From positions 1-35,031 of the forward strand of contig CAIWDF010000213.1 in the NCBI GenBank assembly GCA_903911435.1: a stretch of 35,031 nucleotides of DNA, in the 5' to 3' direction. Made by a program: the position numbers and the translations under genes. The number at the start of each line of letters is the position of its first letter. Within the stretch, counting starts at the first letter, position 1. Origin of the DNA: an uncultured Bacteroidota bacterium (GTDB taxonomy: Bacteria; Bacteroidota; Bacteroidia; 2-12-FULL-35-15). Positions 13,182 through 28,242 of the stretch are shown in pieces. Below the pieces are notes generated by a model, which was not told where the DNA came from, made no database searches, and worked only from the letters and a program-made list of their open reading frames with translations.

Positions 13182-13994
13182 ATGAAAAGAACATCAATTT
13201 TAATCGCATTAAGTTTATACACTTCGTTGAACTTTGCACAAAAAATCAAAGGTAGTGACACTGTTTTGCCATTATCGCAAAAGGAAGCCGAAATGTACAT
13301 GAAGGCTAATAAAATGAACAAAATTACTGTAACGGGTGGAGGTAGCGGAGTTGGTCTTGCTGCTTTAGTTGATAACACTACTGATATCGCTATGTCATCT
13401 CGTAAAATAAAAATGGATGAAAAAATGAAATTGCAAGATGCCGGAAGAGCTTATAAAGAAGTTACCGTTGCTTATGATGCACTTTCAGTGATTGTAAACA
13501 ATGATAACAAAGTGAGCCAACTTACACGCGAACAACTTGAAGGTATATTCACTGGAAAAGTAAAAAACTGGAAAGATGTTGGTGGTGATGATTTACAAAT
13601 AGTAGTTTATTCTCGTGAATCAAGTTCAGGTACCTATGAGTTTTTTAAAGAACATGTAATGAACAAAAAGAACTATGCTTCATCAGTATTGAGTATGCCT
13701 GCAACAGGAGCGATTGTTCAATCAGTTAGTCAAACAAAAGGTGCAATCGGATACATTGGTCTTGCTTACATGGAAAAATCAGTGAAAGCTTTGAAGGTTT
13801 CTTACGATGCTGGAAAAACTTTTGTTGCTCCTTCAATGGCAACAGCAAAAGACAAAACGTATCCTGTTATTCGTCCTTTGTATTATTACTACTTAAATAC
13901 AGTAGAAAAAACAGTTAAACCTTTTATTGATTATGTATTATCTGCCGAAGGCCAAAAAACAGTGGAACAAGTAGGTTATGTTCCATTAAAGTAA
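13182..13994 (+). CDS. pstS: PstS-like phosphate-binding protein
   Basis: 270 residues. A signal peptide (about 1-19, ending NFA) leads into a type II periplasmic binding protein. Phosphate-site motifs are visible: GSDTVLP (24-30), TGGGSGVG (51-58), SSRK (72-75) and SRESSSGTYEFF (144-155), with GAIGYIG near 188. It should capture phosphate in the periplasm for a PstCAB importer, but no pstC, pstA or pstB follows; a terminator does. The outer-membrane porin lies just upstream, making a two-gene outer-membrane/periplasm uptake unit. No lipobox is seen. Confidence 0.9.
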   Translation: MKRTSILIALSLYTSLNFAQKIKGSDTVLPLSQKEAEMYMKANKMNKITVTGGGSGVGLAALVDNTTDIAMSSRKIKMDEKMKLQDAGRAYKEVTVAYDALSVIVNNDNKVSQLTREQLEGIFTGKVKNWKDVGGDDLQIVVYSRESSSGTYEFFKEHVMNKKNYASSVLSMPATGAIVQSVSQTKGAIGYIGLAYMEKSVKALKVSYDAGKTFVAPSMATAKDKTYPVIRPLYYYYLNTVEKTVKPFIDYVLSAEGQKTVEQVGYVPLK

Positions 13995-14015
13995 CAGTTT
14001 GTTTAGTTGAGTACG

Positions 14016-14049
14016 AAAGGCGCTTCACAATTTGTGAGGCGCTTTTTTT
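14016..14049 (+). terminator. Rho-independent terminator after the PstS-like gene
   Basis: AAAGGCGCTTCACAA (14016-14030) pairs with TTGTGAGGCGCTTTT (14032-14046) with only two G:U wobbles, followed by a T-run. It lies 22 bases after the stop codon. Confidence 0.88.
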
Positions 14050-14241
14050 GTTTTAACTCCAACTTAATCTCGATTTTCATTTTCTTGGGTTACTAAAAGA
14101 ATGACCGCATCATGGTTGAGAACACATCAAACTTTAGCATTTCGAAAGCAAGATTTTCCTGCCTTTAGGTGAAATATTCGCTGATTTTTGATTTTCTAAA
14201 AAATATAATTTATTGATAATATATATTTTAACCAAATAATG

Positions 14242-14598
14242 ATAAGAAATCGTCATTTTTACAAGAGATGACATCATTTCTTCTTTTCCTATAAGGATTT
14301 GTTAAAATCCTCAGAGGATTTATTCTTTTCCTTTAAGGATTTATTAAAATCAACCAGTGATTTCATCTTTTCCTTTGAGGATTTGTTAAAGTGGACCAAT
14401 CATTTTAACAAATACTTCCATCATTTCTTCTTTTCCTCTAAGGATTTTAACTTAAGATGACACCATTTTATAAAATCCCTGAATGATTTTAACTTTTCCT
14501 CTCATCATTTTAACTTGAGATGCAATCATTTTAACAAATCATTGAGTGATTTTACCTTTTCCTTTCAACTCTTGTTAAAATGCTGAAAACCCATTAAT
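14242..14598. repeat. 21-bp phased imperfect repeat array B
   Basis: Seventeen 21-bp units in exact register. The heptamer TTTTCCT opens units at 14284, 14326, 14368, 14431, 14494 and 14557, with spacings 42, 42, 63, 63 and 63. Other units open with AAATC or TTGAGATG and end ATTTTAAC. Units are dyadic, for example AAATCCTCAGAGGATTT (14305-14321). The array occupies the 742-bp gap between the convergent PstS-like and PorP/SprF-like genes. The flanks at 14050-14241 and 14599-14736 show nothing I can name. Confidence 0.85.
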
Positions 14599-14736
14599 CC
14601 AAACCATCTTTATCATTAAAATTAGTTATCGAGTGAAACTAAAAACCTGAGAATTAAAATCAAGAATTAACTTCTTGTTTCCGAATCTCGAAAGCAATTC
14701 AACTTCGAATTAATTAAGGAAAAATGAATTAGGGAA

Positions 14737-15639
14737 CTATTGTTTCAACGCTTTGTTGAACTTAATCGCAATCATGATTTCATGCGTTCCGGAGCTGTAT
14801 TTTCGGATATTGGTGGTGGTAAAATCATAGGAATAAGCGAAAGTGAGATTTTGCATCAAAGTGTAGCCCACCATTGCCGACACTGCATCATGAGTTCGAT
14901 AAGCAGCTCCAAGCCAAACCATGTCGCGGTATATTGCTCGTAAACCCAAATCCACTTGAACAGGTGCAGGACTTACAAATTTAATACAAGTTGATGGCTC
15001 CACCTTAATGTCATCATTGATGGTAAATTTATAGCCTCCTGTGAAGTAAACATGGGTAGCCAACTTGCTTAGAGAGGAAGTTTCGGCATTAAAAAATTTT
15101 ATTTGCTCTTGTAATATTTGAGGAACCGAGGCACCTGCATACCATTTCTTATCGGTAGAATAGGCATAAATACCTGCACCAAAATCGGGCATCAATACCG
15201 ACTGAACTCCATTACTGATTACTAAATCGCTTTGATCATGCAATTGTATTTTTGAAGCATCAACCATAAACTGTAATAATCCAGCAGATAGACCAAGAGA
15301 AACTTTTACCTTTTCGGCCACTTTCAAATGATATGCATATGTCAAATAGAATCCAGTGCGATGAGTTGGGCCAACAATGTCGGTAAATAACATTCCTCCC
15401 AATCCCATCTTTTGATTTTTAGTAGGCCCATTTACGCTCAACAAGTAGGTTCTTGGAGCATCAGTAATACCAACCCATTGATACCTGTTGTTCGATTTAC
15501 CTTCGAAATATGGGTTACTACCACATACAGCAGGATTTAGGGCAAAATCATTTACCATATAATTGCTGTATTGCGGTAATTGTTGCGCCACCATTCGCGA
15601 AACAACTAGTATACAGATGATGGATAAATATTTTTTCAT
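14737..15639 (-). CDS. PorP/SprF family type IX secretion-associated outer-membrane protein
   Basis: 300 residues. A signal peptide (about 1-18, ending in MVA before QQ) precedes LPQYSNYMVNDFALNPAVCG, the standard opening of PorP/SprF proteins, and an outer-membrane beta-barrel with a C-terminal IMIAIKFN strand. SprF is needed in Flavobacterium johnsoniae to export or attach SprB, and PorP/SprF-like proteins generally accompany cargo with type B sorting domains. This gene lies 30 bp behind such a cargo gene, in the same order as sprB-sprF. It is the likely dedicated partner of the giant adhesin. The start is ATG. A convergent neighbour and the 21-bp array follow it. Confidence 0.92.
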   Translation of the reverse strand: MKKYLSIICILVVSRMVAQQLPQYSNYMVNDFALNPAVCGSNPYFEGKSNNRYQWVGITDAPRTYLLSVNGPTKNQKMGLGGMLFTDIVGPTHRTGFYLTYAYHLKVAEKVKVSLGLSAGLLQFMVDASKIQLHDQSDLVISNGVQSVLMPDFGAGIYAYSTDKKWYAGASVPQILQEQIKFFNAETSSLSKLATHVYFTGGYKFTINDDIKVEPSTCIKFVSPAPVQVDLGLRAIYRDMVWLGAAYRTHDAVSAMVGYTLMQNLTFAYSYDFTTTNIRKYSSGTHEIMIAIKFNKALKQ

Positions 15640-15669: not shown

Positions 15670-18600
15670 TTACCTCAAAATAGTCAATGGCCCTGTTAAT
15701 GCATCAGGGAACAGCGGGTCGTTTAAATTGATAATGTAATAATACGTACCTACAGGCAATGGTTTACCTTTAAAAGTACCGTCCCATTTATCGTGATATC
15801 CAACTGACTGAAACAATAATTCTCCCCAACGATTGTAAACTTCAACCGTACAGTTCGGATACCGTTCGATGTAATCGATTTGCCATAAATCATTCGCACC
15901 ATCATTGTTTGGCGAAAATCCACTACCAAACACTATCGTTGGTGACACAGTCACCAAAACAGCATCCGATGCAATACAGCCTTCTGCAGAGGTCACCATT
16001 ACCGTGTAAACAGTGGTTAGTTCTGGTGTAGCGGTTGGGTTCGCAAGAGCCGAATCGTTAAGACCTACATAAGGACTCCAATAATATATAGCACCCGAAG
16101 GTCCTGTTGGTGAACCACCAAGTACTGTACTTGCACCTTGTATGATGACCACGTCTTGGCCTGCATTCACCACAGGTAATGGATTGGCAGTTACCATCAC
16201 CGTATCGCGAGTAGAACAACCTGTAGCATTACTAACTTCTAAATAATAGCCATTGATTCCACTAGTTGGGGTCACACTCGTTGTCGCTGTATTTGCAATA
16301 CTCGAATTAGGTAATTGGAACCATTGATAAGTAGCTATGTTGCCAGTACTTGCATTACCATTTAAAATCACCGAACCAGGTTGGCAGAAGGTTGTGTCTG
16401 CTCCAGCATTGGCTGAAATGATAGGGTCGAGAGTGACATTGATGGTGTCTTGATCAATACAACCAAGTCCATTATCAACCACAACATAATATGTGGTGGT
16501 AGCACCAATTGGTGGATTCACTGTAACAGAAACTCCTGTACCGATTGAATTAGCAGGTACCTGATACCATTGATACGAAACAGCATTCAAACTCGAACTA
16601 GCATTCAATATTACATTCGGAGTTTGGCAGATGGTCGTATCATTACCTGCATGAGCTATAGGTAAGGCAATTACGGTTACATTCACCGTATCTGTATTCG
16701 AACAAATTGTTCCATTATCCACTACAACATAATATGAGGTGATACCTAAAATCGGTGTAACAGAAACCGCGGCTGCGCTACCAACTAGTGTATTGCTTGG
16801 TAATTGATACCAATTATATCCCGTGCCATTCAAACTTGTTGTAGCATTTAGGGTATATGTCGCACCTATACAAATTGTCGTATCGTTGCCTGCATGGGCT
16901 GTAATGCCTGGGTAAACAATATAATTCACTGTATCATTATTTGCACAAACTCCATTACTTACCACAACATAGTATTGTGTATTCACTCCTACCGCTGGAT
17001 TGATGGTGATTGTAGCCGTTGTTCCAAGGCTTGTGTTAGTTGGTATTTGGAACCATTCATAGCTCACAGCATTTACACTTGTAGTTGCATTCAGTGTTAC
17101 ACTTCCTGGAACACATAGAATTGAATCATTACCTGCATGAGCTACAGGTAATGCAATTGCTGTCACATTCACCGTATCTGTATTCGTGCAAATTGTTCCA
17201 TTATCTACCACAACATAATATGAGGTGATGCCTAAAATCGGTGTAACAGAAACCGTGGCTGCATTACCAACTAGTGTATTGCTTGGTAGTTGATACCAAT
17301 TATATCCCGTGCCATTCAAACTAGTTGTAGCATTTAGGGTATATGTTGCACCTACACAAATTGTCGTATCGTTGCCTGCATGGGCTGTAATGCCTGGGTA
17401 AACAATATAATTCACTGTATCATTACTCGTACAAACTCCATTACTTACCACAACATAGTATTGTGTATTCACCCCTACCGGTGGATTGATGGTGATTGTA
17501 GCCGTTGTTCCTAGGCTTGTGTTTGTTGGTATTTGGAACCATTCATAGCTCACAGCATTTATACTTGTTGTTGCATTCAATGTAACGCTACCAGGAACAC
17601 ATAGAATTGAATCATTACCTGCATGGGCTACAGGTAAGGTAATTGCTGTCACATTCACCGTATCTGCATTCGTACAAATTGTTCCATTATCTACCACAAC
17701 ATAATATGATGTGATGCCGAAACCCGGAGTAACCGAAACCGTGGCTGCATTACCAACAAGTGTATTGCTTGGTAATTGATACCAATTATATCCTGTAACA
17801 TTCAAACTCGTTGAAGCATCTAAGGAAAATGTTGAGCCAACACAAATAGTCGTATCATTGCCTGCATGGGCTGTCAGAATTGGATTTACAATAATATTAA
17901 CAGTGTCATTGGAAGCACATCCACTGCTATTTGCAATGACTAGATAATAACTTGTGGTTCCAACATTTGGAAAAACGGTAACAGTATCATTTGAACTTAT
18001 ACTTGTATTGCTAGGAATTTGAAACCATTCGTAACTTGAGGCATTAATACTTGTACCTCCATCCAAAAGTACAGCAGTAGGTTGACATATGAAAACATCA
18101 TTACCTGCATGAGATGTTGGTAAAGGAGTGGATGTCACCACAACGGTATCTTTGTCACTACAACCTGTGCCATTATCAACTATTACGTAATAACTTGTTG
18201 TGCCTGTTGGTGGAGTTACAGAAACGGTTGAAGTATTTCCAACACTTGTATTCCCAGGGATTTGAAACCACTGAAAATTAACCCCATTTAAGCTATTTAA
18301 AGCACTTAGTGTTATTGCACCTAGATTACAGAAAGTTGTATCATTTCCTGCATTAGCAATAACTGTTTGCGCTGGATTCACGTTGATCGTATCTGAGAAG
18401 GTACACAAATGCGTATCAGTAACAGTTATCGTGAATGTTCCTGGAGGCAATAAGCTAATATCCTCTGTTGTTGCTGTTGACCCACCACTCCACTGATAAG
18501 TGTATCCTGGACTACCTCCACTCACTGTGATGTCGATAGCTCCATCAGAGAGAGTATTACAACTTGGGTTGGTAACTACACTCGCGATTGTTAATTGTGG

Positions 18601-21600
18601 AGGAGTCATGATGTTGGTCGTTTGATTCACACTACATCCATGTGCATCGGTTACTGTTACCGTAAACGATCCTACAGATAAACCAACTGCAGTTATTCCG
18701 TTTCCTCCCATCGGAGCCCAAGAGAAAGTATATGGCAAAGTTCCTCCAGAAGGCACAGCAGTGATTGTTCCATTTCCACTTCCACTACATGTTGGATTTT
18801 GAATATTGGCTAAACTTAATCCAATGGCAGAAGGTTGGCTAATTGTTGCATTTGCAATAGTAACACATCCATTGTTGCCCGTTACTTGTACCACATAATT
18901 ACCTACACACAAGTTTGTGGCAATAGGTCCTCCCGTTGGCGGTACATTATTCCAAACATATGAATATGGTGGCACTCCATTTGATGCCACAACAGTAGCT
19001 GTCCCATCACAAGTTCCATTGCAACTCGCTGGAGTAGTGTTCACAGTCAATAATGGACCAGATTGGCTATTCAAAGGAATGACAACATTTTGTGTGCAAC
19101 CGTTTGAACAAGTAAGATTAACACTATATACACCTGCACATAAATTGGTCAATGACAAAGATGATGATCCTGTATTCCAAAGTACACTTACAATTCCTGC
19201 ACATCCTGTTGGATTTATTGAAACACTTCCATCGCATGCGCCACAACTTGGGGCAGAGAATGATGGATTTGCCAACATTGAAGCAGGTTGTGTTATGACC
19301 ACCGAATCAATCAACGAACAACCATTCGCATCTGTAATTTGTACAAAATAAGTTCCTGCGCAAAGATTCGACAATGTTGATGTGGTTTGACCTCCTTGAA
19401 TCCAATTGTAAGTATATGGTGCAACTCCTCCAATAGGTGAAATTCCTGTAACCGCACCATCACATAAACCAAAACAAGTAACATTGGATGAATTAATCAG
19501 AGCACTTGTTGGTCCTGAAACATTGCTTACAGGTACTGAAATCACTGCATTGCATCCAATGGCATCGGTGATGCTAACCGAATACAATCCTACACAAAGA
19601 TTGCTTATAGACGAAGTGTTCTGTCCATTACTCCAAATATAATTATACATCCCAGTTCCTCCAGTTGGTGTAGCTGCTATCTGCCCATTACAAACCCCGC
19701 ATGTGGCATCTGTCACCGCAGCATTAGCAACTACTGGTGGTGTGGCGGAAATGGTAGTATTTAAAGTGGTATTACATCCTAAGGCATCTGTAATAGTTAC
19801 TGAATAATCACCCGCACAAAGAGCAGATGCTGTATCGTTTGTTTGTCCTAATGGGTCGTTCCATTGAGTTAGATAAGGTGGGGTTCCAGAAGTAACGGTA
19901 ATATAAGCCATACCTGTACAAGCATTCGAACAGGAAATTGTATTCTGATTAATGGTCGCGACAATTGGTGCTGATTGTCCAATTACAAATGTATCTATCT
20001 GTGTACAATTGTTCGCATCTGTAATAGTCAATGTATATGAACCTTGACATAAAGATGTAATCGTTGGAGTACCTTGTCCTATTGGATTTCCTGGCGCCCA
20101 ACTGTAAGAATATCCAATTGTTCCTCCTGTAGGAGCAACACTGATAGAGCCATTGCATAAACCACCACATGTTGTATTTGTTATCGTTTCATTTGCAACA
20201 ATAGGTGTAGGTTGATTGATGGTTACAGGGCTAAAGTGTACGCAATTATTAGCATCTGTAACTTGTACCAAATAGCTTCCTGCACACAAGTTGATTGCTG
20301 TTGCATTCGCAGTATTGGTTGGAGGATTGTTCCAAACAAAACTATACGGTGCTAAACCTCCAATTGGGTTCACTGTGCCCGATCCATTACAAACAGAATT
20401 ACATGAAGCATCAGTTGTTACTACCGTTTCACCACTCGGACCAGAAGAGTTATTCATTGGAATAACAAAAGTAGAATCGCAACCATGAAAATCCGTTACC
20501 GTCACATTATATATTCCTGCACAAATACTCGTACCATTTGGTGTACCTTGTCCTGTAACAGCAGGGCTCCAATTATAAGTATAAGGCGCTGTACCAGTGG
20601 TAGGAGTCAGGTTAATGGTCCCATTGCATGAACCACAACTAGCAGGTGTGCTACCAATCACAACATCAATAGCAGCTGCAGGATTAACAGTGATGTTCTG
20701 AGTAGATGTACAATTATTAATATCTGTAACCGTTACAGAATAAACTCCAGGACAAAGGTTACTTAAGGTTTGACTAGCGGAGATAACTGGTGTCCACGAA
20801 TAGGTATAACCAGGTGTTCCGCCTAATGGAGTAGCCGTTGCACTTCCATTACACAATCCTGTACAAGTTGGAGGAGTTGAACTAACATTCGCGTTTAATA
20901 TTGGTGGATCTACGATGTTTATGATTTGTGTTGCAGTACAATTAAGTAAATCAGTAACTGTAACCGTATAGCTTCCTGCACATAAATTATTTATTGTTTG
21001 CGAGTGAATATTTCCAGGCATCCATGTATAATTATATGGTGGTGTACCTCCTGTTGGGCTAGCTATTGCAGTTCCATTGCACAAACCATTACAAGTAGGC
21101 AAAGTAAATGTTGCAGTTGGGCTTATCGCGATTGGTTGAGTAATGACAACTGGTGCAGGTGAAGAAGAACATCCATTTGCGTCTACAACTGTTGCCGTGT
21201 AAGTACCTGCACACAAACCACTCGCAGTTGGAGTAAGAATATTTCCTGGATTCCAAACATAACTATAAGGTTGTGTACCTCCATTTGCCGAAACAATGGC
21301 TGTTCCATTACACAAGTTGTTACACGATATATTAAGATGCGAAGTTGTTGTGGTTAATAAAGCTGGTTCTGTAATCACTACCGTATCTTTGGCGATACAA
21401 GAATGTGCATCTGTAACCGTAACGATGTATTGATTTGGACAGAGATTGACAAGATTAGGTGTAATGGATGGCCCATTTGACCAAGAATAGGTATAAGCTG
21501 GTGTTCCTCCAGCAACAGTAGCCGTGGCAGTTCCATTACAAACTCCATGACACAAATCGTTTGTTGAACTTAGCGTGACAACTAAGAGTGGTGGGGATGT

Positions 21601-24600
21601 AATGGTATAAACTCTATTAATACTACAATTATTAGCATCTGTAATAGTTACTGAATAAGTACCCGCGCAGAGATTGTTGATGGATGAAGTGGATTGACCT
21701 CCAGGTAACCAAGCATACGAATAAGTTCCTGTGCCTCCAGTAGGAGCTAAAGAGATACTTCCATTGCACGAATTATTGCAATTAGTGTTCACGATTGTTG
21801 GATGAGCCAACATTAATATAGGATTTGTAAGAGTTACATTGCTCAATGAAACACATCCAACTGCATCCGTAACTTGAACGATATACGTATTTGGGCAAAG
21901 GGAAGAAATAGCTGAAGTACCATTTCCAATTGGGTTACCAGGTGTCCAGTTATAGGTATAGCCACCTGCACCACCCGTAGCAACTACTGATGCACCTCCA
22001 TCACATAAACCATTACAACTTATAGGTGTGGTAGAAGTTGTCAGTGTAGGTCCTGCTGGACTAGCTAACGAATAATTAAAATTATAAGTACAACTTGCCG
22101 CATCTGTTATGGTTAGTGTATAGGCACCAAGAGCCAAGTTTGTTATCGTTGACGTTCCTTGTCCTGTTGGATTTCCTGGCCCCCATGAATACGAGTAACC
22201 TCCTGCCCCACCTGATGGAGTAACCGTAATACTACCATTGTTCAGAATACAACTAGCAACAATTATCGTTGCATTATCATTTACTGTTGTTGGCTGTGTG
22301 ATGGTAGCTTGACCCGTATTGGTACAACCATTCGCATCTGTTACAGTCACTAGATAAGTTCCTGAACACAAGTTGGAAATGGTTGGTGTTACTTCCGAAA
22401 GCGCAGTGAGCCACTGATACGAGTAGACTCCCGTTCCTCCCGTTGGCATTGCAGTTGCTGTTCCATCACAAACTCCATTACAACTAGCATTTGTAACCGA
22501 AGTGTTTACACTAAGTTGAGGAGGATTAACAAAAGTTACGGTTGCGGTATTAAAACAACCTACCGCATCTGTCACTTTTACAGTATACGTTCCTGCACAC
22601 AAACCATTCACCGATTGAGTAAAAAATGGTCCTGTTGGTCCTGTCCATAAATATGAATATGGAGGATTCCCTCCTGATGCATTTGCTGTTGCTGTACCAT
22701 TGCATGAACCAAAACAACTCAGTGTCGTATTGGTAGTTGTTACAATGATATTAATATTCTGAAAAATAGTTACCGTATCCGTTGCACTGCAATTATGACT
22801 ATCGGTAACAGTTACCGTGTACGTAATATTTGGACATAATCCTGTTGCTGTTGCAGCAGACTGACCAGTTGGCATCCACAATATGGTATAAGGACCAGTT
22901 CCTCCTGCTGGAACTACGGTTGCAGTTCCATTACAAATATTACAACTATTCGTTTTATTGGTAATAGGCGAAATAAGTACTGATGGTTGAGTAATAGTTA
23001 CAGGTTGAGTAGATATACACGAATTAAAATCGGTAACAATTAAGTTATAAGTTCCTGCACATAGATTAGTGATTGTATTGGTTCCATCACCCACTGGACT
23101 ACCTGGTGTCCAGTTAAAAGAATACGGGGCAACACCTCCAATAGGTGCAGAAGTAGCCGAACCATCACAAGCGCCATGACAAGACACATTATTTACGATA
23201 CTAGGATTTCCTAATAGTTGTGGAGGTTGAGCAATGGTAATGGTGTTGGTAACGGTACAATTATGTGCGTCAGTAACAGTAACTGTATAGGTACCTGAAC
23301 AAAGATTGGTTATGGAGGAAGTTGTTTGTCCTCCTGGTAACCATAAGTATGAATACCCCGGTGTTCCACCACCTGCTGTTGCACTTGCAGTACCATTGCA
23401 CAATCCAAAACAAGTGACATCAGTAGAAGTGGTTGAAAGGGTAAGAATTGGAGGTTCTGTAATGGTAACACTACTTGAAGCAAGACAACCATGTGCATCA
23501 GTAATATTTAAATTATAAGTGCCAACACATAATGAAGAGATAACCGATGTACCATTCCCCGCTAGAACACCTGGTGACCAAACGAATGTATATGCAGGTG
23601 TACCACCTGTTACAGTTGCTGCTGCTGTTGAATTACAATCTCCATGACACATCAACAGTGTTGGAGAAATGGATACATTTAATACATTTGGTTGGGTAAT
23701 GGTTACCGACACATTAGCTGCACAACCATTCGCATCATGGATATTGATGGTATAAGCACCCGCTGTCAACCCATTAAACGTACCACTAACTAAGAAATTT
23801 ATTCCATCGATAGAGTAAGTGTAACTTGGCGTTCCATTACTACCAGAAACCGTCACACTACCTGTACTACCTCCGTTACAAAGCACATTGGTTTGTGACG
23901 TAATACTTCCTGTGAGGGCAATAGGTTGAGTGATGGTAACAGGAACAGTTATCGTACAACCGTTAACATCCTTAATAGTTACTGTATACACACCTGCTGA
24001 TAAACCACCAAAAATGTTACTTACTTGAAAGGTGATACCATTTATTGAATACGTATATCCGGGTGTACCGCCACTACCAGCAACGGTTACACTTCCAGTA
24101 TTGCCTCCATTACAGAGCACATTGGTTTGTGAAGTAATGCTTCCAGTGAAGGCACTAGGTTGTGCGATAGTAACCGCAACGGTAGTTGTACAGCCATTTG
24201 CATCTTTCACGGTGATGGTATAGCTTCCTGCAGCTAATCCACAAAAGGTTCCACTTGCTTGAAAAACAATTCCGTTTTGTGAGTAAGTATATCCTGATGT
24301 ACCGCCACTACCAGCAACGGTTACACAACCTGTGCTTGCACCAAAACAAAGCACATTGGTTTGTGAACTGATGCTTCCCGATACCACTGTAGCTGGTTCT
24401 GTTATGGTAACACCAAGGGTTGTTGTACATCCGTTCGCATCTTTCACCGTGATGGTATAGGTGCCTGCTGCCAATCCTCCAAAAGTTCCACTTGCAACAA
24501 ACGTAATTCCATCAATAGAATATGTATATCCTGGAGTACCATTCGTTCCTGTTACGGTTACGCTTCCTGTACTTCCGCCTTTACAAAGCACATTGGTTTG

Positions 24601-27600
24601 CGAATTAATGATACCCGCTACCGCAGTAGCAGGTTGTGTAATGGTAACTGAAACCGTTGAAGTACATCCATTGGCATCTTTTACAGTTATGGTATATACT
24701 CCTGCAATCAAATTACTAAAGGTACCACTTACTTGAAAGGTGATTCCATCTATCGAATACGTATACCCAGGAGTTCCATTTGCCCCTGCCACTGTAACAC
24801 TGCCCGTATTCGCTCCCCTGCAAAGCACATTGGTTTGGGAGGTAATGCTTACTGTTACTGATATGGGTTGACTTATTGTTACAGGAACGGTAACAATACA
24901 ATTATTTGCATCTTTAATAGTAATCGTATAACTACCTGCAGCTAGACCATTAAAAGTACTACTTGCTTGAAACGTAATTCCATTAATTGAATAAGTATAT
25001 CCTGGTGTACCTCCACTACCGGCAACAGTTACACTTCCGGTATTACCTCCATTACAAAGCACATTGGTTTGTGATGTAATGCTTCCAGTAAATGCACTTG
25101 GTTGTGTGATGGTAACTGCAACGGTAGTTGTACAACCATTCGCATCTTTCACAGTGATGGTGTAACTTCCTGCAGCTAATCCACAAAATGTTCCACTGGC
25201 TTGAAAAACAATTCCGTTTTGTGAGTAGGTATATCCCGGTGTACCACCACTACCTGCTACCGTTACACAGCCTGTGCTAGCACCAAAACAAAGCACATTG
25301 GTTTGGGAGCTGATGTTTCCAGATACTACTGTAACTGGTTCTGTTATGATAACACTAACGGTTGTTGTACATCCATTGGCATCTTTCACCGTGATGGTAT
25401 ACGTTCCTGCTGCCAACCCTCCAAAAGTTCCACTTGCAACAAATATAATTCCATCACTAGAATAAGTATATCCAGGTGTACCATTTGTTCCTGTTACGGT
25501 TACACTTCCTGTGCTTCCGCCTTTACAAAGCACATTGGTTTGTGAACTAATGATTCCTGCTACAGCTGTTGCTGGTTGAGTGATGGTAACCGATACGGTT
25601 GTGGTACATCCATTGGCATCTTTCACTGTTACTGTGTAAACACCTGCAAGCAAACTACTGAAGGTACCACTTACTTGGAAGGTGATTCCATTGATGGAAT
25701 AGGTATAACCAGGTGTACCATTTGCTCCAAGCACCGTAACACTTCCTGTATTGGCTCCCCTACAAAGCACATTGGTTTGTGAGGTAATACTTCCCGTAAC
25801 TGCCGATGGTTGAGTGATGGTAGCACTTACAGTTACCGTACAACCATTCGAATCTTTTATCGTTATGGTATAGGTGCCTGCTATTAATCCACTAAAGGTG
25901 CTACTTCCTTGAAACGTAACTCCATTGATAGAATATGTATAACCAGGCGTTCCTCCACTGCCCGCAACAGTTACACTTCCTGTATTTCCATTATGACAAA
26001 GTACATTCACTTGTGATACGACAGAACCCGTTAGTACTGGCGGTTGGGTAATGGTAACCGGAACTGTGGCAGTGCAACCATTTGCATCTTTCACCGTGAT
26101 GGTATAACTTCCTAAAGCTAATCCATTAAATGTTCCGCTGGCTTGAAACGTTACTCCGTTCAACGAATAAGTATAACCCGGTGTGCCTCCATTGCCTGCA
26201 ATGGTCACTGTTCCTGAGCTGCCTCCGAAACAAAGCACATTGGTTTGTGCACTAATATTACCCGAAACCACAGTAGCTGGTTCGGTTATGGTAACATCAA
26301 CGGTTGTGGTACATCCATTCGCATCTTTCACTGTGATGGTATACGTTCCTGCTGCTAATCCTCCAAAAGTTCCACTTGCAACAAATGTAATTCCATCAAT
26401 AGAATACGTATAACCTGGTGTGCCATTCGTTCCTGTCACGGTTACACTTCCAGTGCTTCCACCTTTGCAAAGTACATTGGTTTGTGCACTGATAATTCCT
26501 GCCACAGCAGTTGCTGGTTGAGTAATGGTCACCGAAACGATAGCCGTACATCCATTGGCATCTTTCACCGTGATGGTATACGTACCTGCTGCTAAACTAC
26601 CGAATGTACCGGATGGTTGAAAAGTAACTCCATTGATTGAATAGGTATAACCCGGAGTGCCATTTGCTCCTGCTACGGTAACACTTCCTGTACTTGCACC
26701 TCGACACAGAACATTTGTCTGTGAGGTAATAGAACCTGTAACGGCTGTAGGTTGCGTGATGACGGTATCGAAGGTGGTGGTACAATTGTGTGAATCGGTG
26801 ATGGTACACGTATACGTACCTGCACAAAGATTGGTAACCGATGGTGTGCCATCGCCTGTTGGGTTTCCTGGTGTCCAATTAAAACTATATGCTGCTGTAC
26901 CACCCGAAGGTGTTACGGTTGAAGCTCCATTGCATATTCCATGACAGGTTAGATTGGTTGCTGTTCCATTAGCTACTAGTGGAGCTGGTTCGGTAACTAC
27001 AATGGTGGTAGTGGCCGAACAACCTCTCGAATCAGTTACTCCAACGGTATAAGTACCTGCACAAATATTGTTGGCAATATCACTGTTAATAGCTCCAGGA
27101 GTCCATGTATAGGTATAAGGAAAGGTTCCTCCTGTAGCATCTACCGAAGAAGTAGCATTGCAAAGTCCATTACAAGTTGGAGGTGTAGTGCTCAATTCAT
27201 AATCAAACAATACAGCGGGTTCCGCTATTTGAATGGAACAAAAACAGAATAGATGCGAAACATTATCTGTAACTTTTACAGTATATGTTCCAGCACATAA
27301 ACCCGTAACGGCCGTAGTGCCTTGCCCTGCAGGATTTCCAGGACTCCAAACATAAGTATAACTTCCCGAACCTCCGGTAACCGACACTACCGAAGCAGTT
27401 CCGTTGCACGACCCATTACAAGCAATGTTGGCTCCTGTTAAGGTAATTACCAAATTGGCCGAACAAGCAGTGCCCGAAGGGGTACAGAAGGTAGTGAGTG
27501 GTGCAAAGTTTCCGTAATTTAAATTTCCTCTTCGAAAATGATCGAGTCCAATTCCTTGTTCGAAAATAAGACGAGAGGAAGCTGGTGTAAAGTTTAAGTT

Positions 27601-28242
27601 GGTAGAACTACTAAAATCCCATGTATCGATAATATAAATTTCGGAAGAGGTAAGGTTTAAACTTCTTTGTTGATTAGAGTTTCCATTAAAGTTTCCAACC
27701 TTTACATTTTTATCATTCGTGTTCAAATCCCCTTTTAGTAGAACAATCGAACTTTGTTTGATGGTAGTTACATCATCATTTAACATCCACGAACCTGCAC
27801 CGTCAAATACCCAGTTACCAATAATAAGTTGCCCGAAAGTATTAATAACATTGGTGTTGAGAGAGGAAGCAAAAATAGTTTGTCCTTTAAATCCATTGTA
27901 CAACAAAGTTGACAAACGGTACGAACCATATACTGTTAATTTTTTATTGGCTGCTGCCGAAAAGATGGCTCTATCGTCAATCGAACTCCAGTCGATGGAT
28001 TTACAAACAGCATCCGTGGTAACCATCACGGTTTGTTTATCAGCCGAAAAAGATTGTTGATTAAAAAACACATCGTCATTCGAACTAGGAATGGATGCAC
28101 CACCTGCACCTCCACTGTTTACCGACCAATGCTCCGAATTGTTCCATACCCCAGTTCCTCCTACCCAATACCTATTGGCGGCCTTTGACGAGGTGAGAGA
28201 AGCAGCAAAAACGATGAAAAAGAATAGTAAACTTTTTTTCAA
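15670..28242 (-). CDS. Giant SprB-like surface adhesin, T9SS type B sorting domain
   Basis: 4190 residues. Order: signal peptide (about 1-21); an N-terminal domain (about 22-257) opening with RYWVGGTGVWNNSEHW, common at the start of such proteins; about 39 SprB repeats (about 258-3290), each with C-x-G-x-C-N-G, GGxxPYxYxW, LCAGTYTVxVTD and GC; ten Ig/PKD-like repeats (about 3291-4095) marked AGNDTTIC and YYVVV; and a CHU_C/gliding-type C-terminal domain (about 4100-4190) with GFSPNNDGANDLW, VYNRWGELLF and WDGTFKGKPLPVGTYYY. It should be exported by the T9SS and displayed at the surface, possibly for gliding or attachment. The only start after the upstream stop is TTG at 28242 (or the preceding ATT). 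The PorP/SprF-like gene follows. Confidence 0.94.
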   Translation of the reverse strand: MKKSLLFFFIVFAASLTSSKAANRYWVGGTGVWNNSEHWSVNSGGAGGASIPSSNDDVFFNQQSFSADKQTVMVTTDAVCKSIDWSSIDDRAIFSAAANKKLTVYGSYRLSTLLYNGFKGQTIFASSLNTNVINTFGQLIIGNWVFDGAGSWMLNDDVTTIKQSSIVLLKGDLNTNDKNVKVGNFNGNSNQQRSLNLTSSEIYIIDTWDFSSSTNLNFTPASSRLIFEQGIGLDHFRRGNLNYGNFAPLTTFCTPSGTACSANLVITLTGANIACNGSCNGTASVVSVTGGSGSYTYVWSPGNPAGQGTTAVTGLCAGTYTVKVTDNVSHLFCFCSIQIAEPAVLFDYELSTTPPTCNGLCNATSSVDATGGTFPYTYTWTPGAINSDIANNICAGTYTVGVTDSRGCSATTTIVVTEPAPLVANGTATNLTCHGICNGASTVTPSGGTAAYSFNWTPGNPTGDGTPSVTNLCAGTYTCTITDSHNCTTTFDTVITQPTAVTGSITSQTNVLCRGASTGSVTVAGANGTPGYTYSINGVTFQPSGTFGSLAAGTYTITVKDANGCTAIVSVTITQPATAVAGIISAQTNVLCKGGSTGSVTVTGTNGTPGYTYSIDGITFVASGTFGGLAAGTYTITVKDANGCTTTVDVTITEPATVVSGNISAQTNVLCFGGSSGTVTIAGNGGTPGYTYSLNGVTFQASGTFNGLALGSYTITVKDANGCTATVPVTITQPPVLTGSVVSQVNVLCHNGNTGSVTVAGSGGTPGYTYSINGVTFQGSSTFSGLIAGTYTITIKDSNGCTVTVSATITQPSAVTGSITSQTNVLCRGANTGSVTVLGANGTPGYTYSINGITFQVSGTFSSLLAGVYTVTVKDANGCTTTVSVTITQPATAVAGIISSQTNVLCKGGSTGSVTVTGTNGTPGYTYSSDGIIFVASGTFGGLAAGTYTITVKDANGCTTTVSVIITEPVTVVSGNISSQTNVLCFGASTGCVTVAGSGGTPGYTYSQNGIVFQASGTFCGLAAGSYTITVKDANGCTTTVAVTITQPSAFTGSITSQTNVLCNGGNTGSVTVAGSGGTPGYTYSINGITFQASSTFNGLAAGSYTITIKDANNCIVTVPVTISQPISVTVSITSQTNVLCRGANTGSVTVAGANGTPGYTYSIDGITFQVSGTFSNLIAGVYTITVKDANGCTSTVSVTITQPATAVAGIINSQTNVLCKGGSTGSVTVTGTNGTPGYTYSIDGITFVASGTFGGLAAGTYTITVKDANGCTTTLGVTITEPATVVSGSISSQTNVLCFGASTGCVTVAGSGGTSGYTYSQNGIVFQASGTFCGLAAGSYTITVKDANGCTTTVAVTIAQPSAFTGSITSQTNVLCNGGNTGSVTVAGSGGTPGYTYSINGITFQVSNIFGGLSAGVYTVTIKDVNGCTITVPVTITQPIALTGSITSQTNVLCNGGSTGSVTVSGSNGTPSYTYSIDGINFLVSGTFNGLTAGAYTINIHDANGCAANVSVTITQPNVLNVSISPTLLMCHGDCNSTAAATVTGGTPAYTFVWSPGVLAGNGTSVISSLCVGTYNLNITDAHGCLASSSVTITEPPILTLSTTSTDVTCFGLCNGTASATAGGGTPGYSYLWLPGGQTTSSITNLCSGTYTVTVTDAHNCTVTNTITIAQPPQLLGNPSIVNNVSCHGACDGSATSAPIGGVAPYSFNWTPGSPVGDGTNTITNLCAGTYNLIVTDFNSCISTQPVTITQPSVLISPITNKTNSCNICNGTATVVPAGGTGPYTILWMPTGQSAATATGLCPNITYTVTVTDSHNCSATDTVTIFQNINIIVTTTNTTLSCFGSCNGTATANASGGNPPYSYLWTGPTGPFFTQSVNGLCAGTYTVKVTDAVGCFNTATVTFVNPPQLSVNTSVTNASCNGVCDGTATAMPTGGTGVYSYQWLTALSEVTPTISNLCSGTYLVTVTDANGCTNTGQATITQPTTVNDNATIIVASCILNNGSITVTPSGGAGGYSYSWGPGNPTGQGTSTITNLALGAYTLTITDAASCTYNFNYSLASPAGPTLTTSTTPISCNGLCDGGASVVATGGAGGYTYNWTPGNPIGNGTSAISSLCPNTYIVQVTDAVGCVSLSNVTLTNPILMLAHPTIVNTNCNNSCNGSISLAPTGGTGTYSYAWLPGGQSTSSINNLCAGTYSVTITDANNCSINRVYTITSPPLLVVTLSSTNDLCHGVCNGTATATVAGGTPAYTYSWSNGPSITPNLVNLCPNQYIVTVTDAHSCIAKDTVVITEPALLTTTTSHLNISCNNLCNGTAIVSANGGTQPYSYVWNPGNILTPTASGLCAGTYTATVVDANGCSSSPAPVVITQPIAISPTATFTLPTCNGLCNGTAIASPTGGTPPYNYTWMPGNIHSQTINNLCAGSYTVTVTDLLNCTATQIINIVDPPILNANVSSTPPTCTGLCNGSATATPLGGTPGYTYSWTPVISASQTLSNLCPGVYSVTVTDINNCTSTQNITVNPAAAIDVVIGSTPASCGSCNGTINLTPTTGTAPYTYNWSPAVTGQGTPNGTSICAGIYNVTVTDFHGCDSTFVIPMNNSSGPSGETVVTTDASCNSVCNGSGTVNPIGGLAPYSFVWNNPPTNTANATAINLCAGSYLVQVTDANNCVHFSPVTINQPTPIVANETITNTTCGGLCNGSISVAPTGGTIGYSYSWAPGNPIGQGTPTITSLCQGSYTLTITDANNCTQIDTFVIGQSAPIVATINQNTISCSNACTGMAYITVTSGTPPYLTQWNDPLGQTNDTASALCAGDYSVTITDALGCNTTLNTTISATPPVVANAAVTDATCGVCNGQIAATPTGGTGMYNYIWSNGQNTSSISNLCVGLYSVSITDAIGCNAVISVPVSNVSGPTSALINSSNVTCFGLCDGAVTGISPIGGVAPYTYNWIQGGQTTSTLSNLCAGTYFVQITDANGCSLIDSVVITQPASMLANPSFSAPSCGACDGSVSINPTGCAGIVSVLWNTGSSSLSLTNLCAGVYSVNLTCSNGCTQNVVIPLNSQSGPLLTVNTTPASCNGTCDGTATVVASNGVPPYSYVWNNVPPTGGPIATNLCVGNYVVQVTGNNGCVTIANATISQPSAIGLSLANIQNPTCSGSGNGTITAVPSGGTLPYTFSWAPMGGNGITAVGLSVGSFTVTVTDAHGCSVNQTTNIMTPPQLTIASVVTNPSCNTLSDGAIDITVSGGSPGYTYQWSGGSTATTEDISLLPPGTFTITVTDTHLCTFSDTINVNPAQTVIANAGNDTTFCNLGAITLSALNSLNGVNFQWFQIPGNTSVGNTSTVSVTPPTGTTSYYVIVDNGTGCSDKDTVVVTSTPLPTSHAGNDVFICQPTAVLLDGGTSINASSYEWFQIPSNTSISSNDTVTVFPNVGTTSYYLVIANSSGCASNDTVNIIVNPILTAHAGNDTTICVGSTFSLDASTSLNVTGYNWYQLPSNTLVGNAATVSVTPGFGITSYYVVVDNGTICTNADTVNVTAITLPVAHAGNDSILCVPGSVTLNATTSINAVSYEWFQIPTNTSLGTTATITINPPVGVNTQYYVVVSNGVCTSNDTVNYIVYPGITAHAGNDTTICVGATYTLNATTSLNGTGYNWYQLPSNTLVGNAATVSVTPILGITSYYVVVDNGTICTNTDTVNVTAIALPVAHAGNDSILCVPGSVTLNATTSVNAVSYEWFQIPTNTSLGTTATITINPAVGVNTQYYVVVSNGVCANNDTVNYIVYPGITAHAGNDTTICIGATYTLNATTSLNGTGYNWYQLPSNTLVGSAAAVSVTPILGITSYYVVVDNGTICSNTDTVNVTVIALPIAHAGNDTTICQTPNVILNASSSLNAVSYQWYQVPANSIGTGVSVTVNPPIGATTTYYVVVDNGLGCIDQDTINVTLDPIISANAGADTTFCQPGSVILNGNASTGNIATYQWFQLPNSSIANTATTSVTPTSGINGYYLEVSNATGCSTRDTVMVTANPLPVVNAGQDVVIIQGASTVLGGSPTGPSGAIYYWSPYVGLNDSALANPTATPELTTVYTVMVTSAEGCIASDAVLVTVSPTIVFGSGFSPNNDGANDLWQIDYIERYPNCTVEVYNRWGELLFQSVGYHDKWDGTFKGKPLPVGTYYYIINLNDPLFPDALTGPLTILR
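16661..17880 (-). repeat. 486-bp super-repeat in the Ig-like part of the adhesin
   Basis: Two neighbouring Ig/PKD-like units repeat together with a period of exactly 486 bp (162 residues). The same landmark begins at 16661, 17147 and 17633, and another at 16901 and 17387. Copies differ at only scattered bases. About two and a half copies are present. Confidence 0.88.
23695..26754 (-). repeat. 942-bp four-unit super-repeat in the SprB array
   Basis: Thirteen SprB units of 78, 79, 79 and 78 residues in rotation span residues 497-1516. The landmark ACATT encoding part of NVLC sits at 23885, 24119, 24353, 24590, 24827, 25061, 25295, 25532, 25769, 26003, 26237, 26474 and 26711, giving spacings of 234, 234, 237 and 237. 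Four units make a 942-bp block repeated three times, plus one final unit. Units of the same class are closer to each other than to their neighbours. Confidence 0.95.

Follow-up and report, generated by a model that had tools for sequence, protein, structure and literature searches.

Tandem repeats in bacteria are usually regarded as unconnected slippage accidents of mixed unit length, and VNTR loci, whose unit lengths are likewise mixed, lengthen or shorten by whole units. The arrays described here share with bacterial minisatellites the head-to-tail arrangement of units of 10-60 bp, the intergenic position and the occurrence of near-perfect as well as decayed copies, but differ in that, within a genome, one exact 21-bp period dominates arrays unrelated in sequence, and the same period appears again in other families. 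This period equals two turns of B-DNA. The tandem repeats of the archaeal Borgs are perfect and A-rich, have many unit lengths and lie in ORFs in about half of the cases (PMC9879509). Like the present arrays, they are genome-wide, of independent origin and not found in close comparison genomes, and some of their intergenic units measure ~20 nt (PMC9879509); in contrast, our arrays have a constant unit length of 21 bp, are imperfect in many cases and lie almost without exception between genes, and assignment to the Borg type was rejected on the imperfect units, the single period and the presence of only 1 of 51 arrays in an ORF. BrickBuilt of Porphyromonas gingivalis, also of the Bacteroidota, is intergenic and built of contiguous short tandem units (23 nt), but forms one sequence family with a leader, a tail and inverted ends (PMC4596501), whereas the 21-bp arrays vary in sequence and have no ends of this kind. 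TAACTGA heptamers are intergenic direct repeats with a patchy distribution in Beggiatoaceae, Cyanobacteria and some Bacteroidetes, and in a Beggiatoaceae genome most of them immediately precede start codons (PMC4679880); their sequence is a fixed 7 nt, which was not found in the units of the window array. Finally, the 10-11 bp periodicity of A-tract curvature also represents a helical-phase spacing (PMC3431218, PMC3940949), but the 21-bp arrays lack a 10.5-bp A/T harmonic and it is entire units that recur at 21 bp. Our search of the open-access literature, which did not extend to subscription papers, did not turn up any account of an array class with a fixed 21-bp period.

The window, which is the whole 35,031-nucleotide stretch of a contig from an uncultured Bacteroidota bacterium, contains one such array, with the following features.

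13182..13994, plus strand: gene for a PstS-like substrate-binding (phosphate-binding) protein, left neighbour (Pfam PF12849, E 1e-47)
14015..14047, plus strand: intrinsic-terminator-like hairpin of the upstream (pstS) gene, outside the array
14242..14254, unstranded: left degenerate edge, the first unit of the initial annotation; its ATTT (14255) opens the core
14255..14569, unstranded: core array, 15 contiguous 21-bp units, every one starting with ATTT
14276..14390, unstranded: sub-block with a 42-bp higher-order period, alternation of A and B units (TRF)
14397..14567, unstranded: sub-block with a 63-bp higher-order period, three unit types (TRF)
14570..14598, unstranded: right degenerate edge, ATTT gone and register fading
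14737..15639, minus strand: gene for a PorP/SprF type IX secretion membrane protein, right convergent neighbour (Pfam PF11751, E 1e-81)

The initial annotation had described 17 units of strict 21-bp period lying between convergent genes. The intergenic position was borne out, with the PstS-like gene (+) and PorP/SprF (-) on either side, but the number of units was not: 15 consecutive units keep the register, and the first and last of the 17 are the degenerate edges. TTTTCCT occurs exactly at the six positions that had been listed for it (14284, 14326, 14368, 14431, 14494 and 14557), each a unit start. Outside the ATTT, the core units have a mean identity of 45%, and the register runs through without any slip; column 21 is G or C, and columns 9-10 are A or T, in all units. 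The fraction of matches across 14200-14640 was 0.429 at a lag of 21 (z 5.4), 0.526 at 42 (z 10.1) and 0.516 at 63 (z 9.0), and 500 dinucleotide shuffles reached at most 0.41 whichever lag was taken, indicating that the period is real. The region is AT-rich, which would speak for ordinary chance periodicity of such DNA, but z values of 9-10 at lags 42 and 63, replicated genome-wide and in congeners, refute it and leave it a virtually nil probability. Next to PorP/SprF, a 4190-aa ORF (15670-28242, minus strand) with long internal repeats of ~237-243 bp resembles a repeat adhesin secreted by the type IX pathway.

Internal dyads, which had also been claimed for the units, were significant in the window array (p about 0.01). 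The array folded much better than its dinucleotide shuffles, with a z of -6.0 as plus-strand RNA, -3.9 as minus-strand RNA and -4.8 as DNA, as might be expected if the arrays were transcribed hairpin chains acting as structured RNA or in a 3' UTR. However, both strands fold well because dyad repeats necessarily do so, two thirds of all arrays have no significant dyad excess, unit orientation differs within an orthologous pair of arrays, and an Rfam search returned nothing above threshold. In addition, the pstS terminator precedes the array by about 200 bp, and the array is therefore not the 3' end of pstS. The 3' UTR role proposed earlier is thus unlikely, and structured RNA in general is highly improbable. 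Terminator-like hairpins were also seen 3' of most of the pstS orthologs shown. In most of the relatives shown a different gene comes next after pstS, so that gene order is broken at the window array and an orthologous site for it does not exist in them; the PorP neighbourhoods compared across relatives were not syntenic. No homologue of the window array was found in relatives, a 49-bp match in G005 being the single hit.

Similar arrays were searched for in the genome as four ATTT at 21-bp spacing with at most one mismatch, the backward pattern serving as control. The source genome gave 148+130 matches as against 49+32 for the control, representing many separate arrays with unrelated bodies, and the ATTT anchor of arrays recovered in this manner is partly an artefact of the pattern. 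Examples from the array-bearing contigs of this genome are (ATTTGCGACTCGCCACGAACG)n, (ATTTCTACACCACCCAAATCC)n and (ATTTAGCCATCTCCGAGCAGC)n, and some other arrays there lack ATTT. Since ATTT was part of the search pattern, congener DNA was sampled irrespective of arrays. A 600-kb array-blind sample of G027 yielded 53 period-21 calls and no more than 8 for any other period. In five array-bearing genomes, TRF showed that only 21 and 42 stood out among periods between 19 and 45 bp, and beyond that range 63 did so too; the 21/42 peak was absent from 100-kb samples of the array-free congeners G009 and G010. Intergenic autocorrelation, which had been suggested as a check, gave peaks at 21, 42 and 63 in the source genome, G027 and G028 (z at lag 21 of 17 in G000, 10 in G027 and 9 in G028); in the G009 and G010 samples, 21/42/63 did not form the leading series. 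The source genome also contains rare arrays of period 20 (L026:1-222, GTGGCGATTTCTCGTCACAC) and period 19 (L036:198-420, TTTTTTCGGGAAATGCTAC), and any ruler is therefore not absolute.

At a strict threshold, 51 arrays of median length 287 bp were present in 1.19 Mb of array-blind DNA from G027 and G015. Scaling suggests roughly 170-180 strict arrays per genome of 4.1-4.3 Mb, or about 1% of the DNA, and we estimate that the source genome and a group of its relatives hold a hundred or more such arrays. Arrays were thus abundant elsewhere, as the initial annotation had required of a genuine class, and its exclusion of CRISPR and coding repeats was upheld: units are contiguous without spacers, the match to an Rfam CRISPR model scored 27 bits against a cut-off of 47 and lay outside the array, and the arrays lie between genes, with any open frame in just 22 of 51, which speaks against coding heptapeptide repeats. 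Insulation between convergent genes was not supported. Tandem, divergent and convergent gaps held 30, 9 and 10 of the G027 and G015 arrays, near the background of 406, 131 and 84, and pstS has its own terminator upstream of the window array. Several contigs of the source genome terminate within arrays.

What, then, do the arrays have in common? Units inside one array were up to 95-100% identical, and those of different arrays were unrelated. Expectation maximization over 37 array profiles did not reveal a shared motif in excess of controls with permuted columns (2.90 versus 2.61-2.86 bits). The sole general invariant is the 21-bp quantum. One explanation is an architectural platform, in which an oligomeric nucleoid protein would occupy one face of the double helix at intervals of 21 bp, with spacing selected and sequence free to drift. 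Cooperative protein binding, with one putative site per two helical turns, may occur, and the platform would account for a spacing of two turns, for the invariant ATTT and fixed weak and strong columns of the window array, for intergenic placement in every gap orientation, and for dyad-symmetric units, which reached significance in 31 arrays out of 89 (expectation 4.5), the window array included. Against it stands the lack of a common motif. The 10.5-bp A/T harmonic was, moreover, depleted (0.075 versus 0.102 expected, z -3.8), which argues against a general phased-bend design and led us to reject phased A-tract curvature; a 7-bp A/T component was mildly raised. A lattice also does not need the near-identical units of young arrays. 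We consider the platform less likely than not, ranking it second.

The indel percentage reported by TRF was 2.1 for imperfect 21-bp arrays and 2.3 for other tandem repeats; the two being equal, a generator of duplications alone suffices, and a low indel rate could not be used as general proof of selection. A single orthologous pair does favour selection. This array precedes the same gene, whose products are 83% identical, in G015 and G027 (L125:12554-12855 and L149:13171-13483), and its 261 columns are gap-free at 66% identity, while the neighbouring 161 columns have 4 gap openings. The comparison hints at selection on spacing, a suggestive observation from one case, and fits the nucleoid platform, although just one such pair was found. 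Unit orientation was not kept between the two copies. Half-units were seen in either orientation in the same register (for example ATTTAAGACAT and ATGTCTTAAAT, or AAGGTTA and AACCTTA), with flips and many A-T and C-G exchanges at L033:9412-9719, in the orthologous array and in the window array. Such complement-flip substitutions were raised in the window array and the orthologous pair, a signal that was spotted first and tested afterwards, and were not raised in arrays at large.

Paralogous arrays were also observed. In G000, the arrays L025/L033, L026/L029, L023/L028 and L027/L039/L040 have units and 20-60 bp of flank in common. This raises the question of whether the arrays are mobile or copied elements that spread in the manner of non-autonomous MITEs, for which BrickBuilt, a 23-nt minisatellite inside a MITE, offers a precedent (PMC4596501). 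However, units are unrelated in most arrays, whose bodies differ, the copied ends showed no common terminal inverted repeats or target duplications, and Y1 transposases do not vary in number with the arrays. Mobile spread is accordingly improbable as the general explanation, and a MITE was rejected, as was a REP/RAYT system, given the same Y1_Tnp counts and the want of a common motif. A dispersed repeat of ~110-150 bp with a hairpin (GGAAATCCTTTTTCTTTGCCC...GGGCAAAGAAAAAGATTGGAAGGG) is present in the source genome, and several of its copies adjoin 21-bp arrays or contig ends.

L027:6186-6298, L032:388-494, L036:52-167, L038:17633-17775 and L040:286-403: copies of the dispersed hairpin repeat

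When G015 and G027 were compared, none of 51 collinear gene junctions in G027 carried an array, as against 3 of 15 junctions that were not collinear; on these small numbers, and with the break in gene order at the window array, the arrays seem to be located at synteny breakpoints.

We favour, at a probability of about 45%, the reading that the window array is an old, diverged member of a class of lineage-specific intergenic minisatellites made by tandem duplication of 21 bp. Young arrays have near-identical units of arbitrary sequence, and duplication with a ruler is therefore called for. An enzyme or nucleoprotein complex would have two contacts with the DNA, separated by two turns and thus lying on one side of the helix, and would repeatedly duplicate 21 bp. 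Candidates are a nicking or strand-transfer enzyme that acts as a dimer and leaves a staggered cut to be filled in, and a polymerase that slips back by one step of a protein lattice and primes again. Recombination would afterwards lengthen the arrays and turn them over by 21, 42 or 63 bp at a time, and the 42- and 63-bp higher-order blocks are as expected of later unequal exchange. Selection would remove arrays from coding DNA. The dyads in a third of the arrays suggest that hairpin or cruciform intermediates may favour the process or be favoured by it, and register could be maintained afterwards by protein binding or structure. Several points count against the duplication generator. Duplications of 21 bp stay in frame and should be tolerable in many proteins, yet ORFs are nearly free of arrays; and old arrays keep register, as do the 15 window units at 45% identity, which hints at selection on spacing. 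Decayed arrays that remain in register with their anchors, together with the gap-free orthologous pair, therefore leave room for such selection, and generator and lattice can hold together. Slightly more tentatively, some Bacteroidota may possess an undescribed two-turn ruler system, either a duplication enzyme or a spacing-selected lattice, that writes or maintains about a hundred or more sequence-independent arrays. It also counts against the generator that no responsible enzyme was identified among the candidates considered. SbcD is nearly absent across the genus, with or without arrays, so that its loss was rejected as the cause; RAYT was rejected because the number of Y1_Tnp transposases does not follow the presence of arrays; and loss of the PolA flap exonuclease was rejected because all 24 genomes tested have the 5'-3' exonuclease domain of PolA.

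The distribution among relatives was uneven. Exact pattern matches numbered 50-153 in eight of 36 congeners and 0-6 in the rest. On a gyrB tree of 30 of the 36, seven of the eight array-rich species formed one clade with 100/100 support, G028 being separate, and this clustering was equalled in 0 of 500 label shuffles. The stem of the seven-species clade is long (0.17 changes per column, median tip 0.025), possibly reflecting fast evolution at the time the arrays arose. Among 295 Bacteroidia scanned, recurrence was patchy: G150 had 74 matches, G307 57 and G304 38, and most had 0-3, some low counts being simple heptamer repeats, so that high values alone are meaningful. The highest count, 401, came from G299, a 3.8-Mb genome of another Bacteroidia family.

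That numerous arrays of unrelated sequence follow one exact period in one clade, and not in its sister species, implies a length-measuring process, and sister pairs with and without arrays should make the responsible gene findable by comparison. In practical terms, the arrays disrupt short-read assembly of the genomes that bear them. Should the arrays prove to be binding lattices, they would add a new level to chromosome organisation; should they prove to be products of a duplication enzyme, they would reveal a new mutational mechanism.
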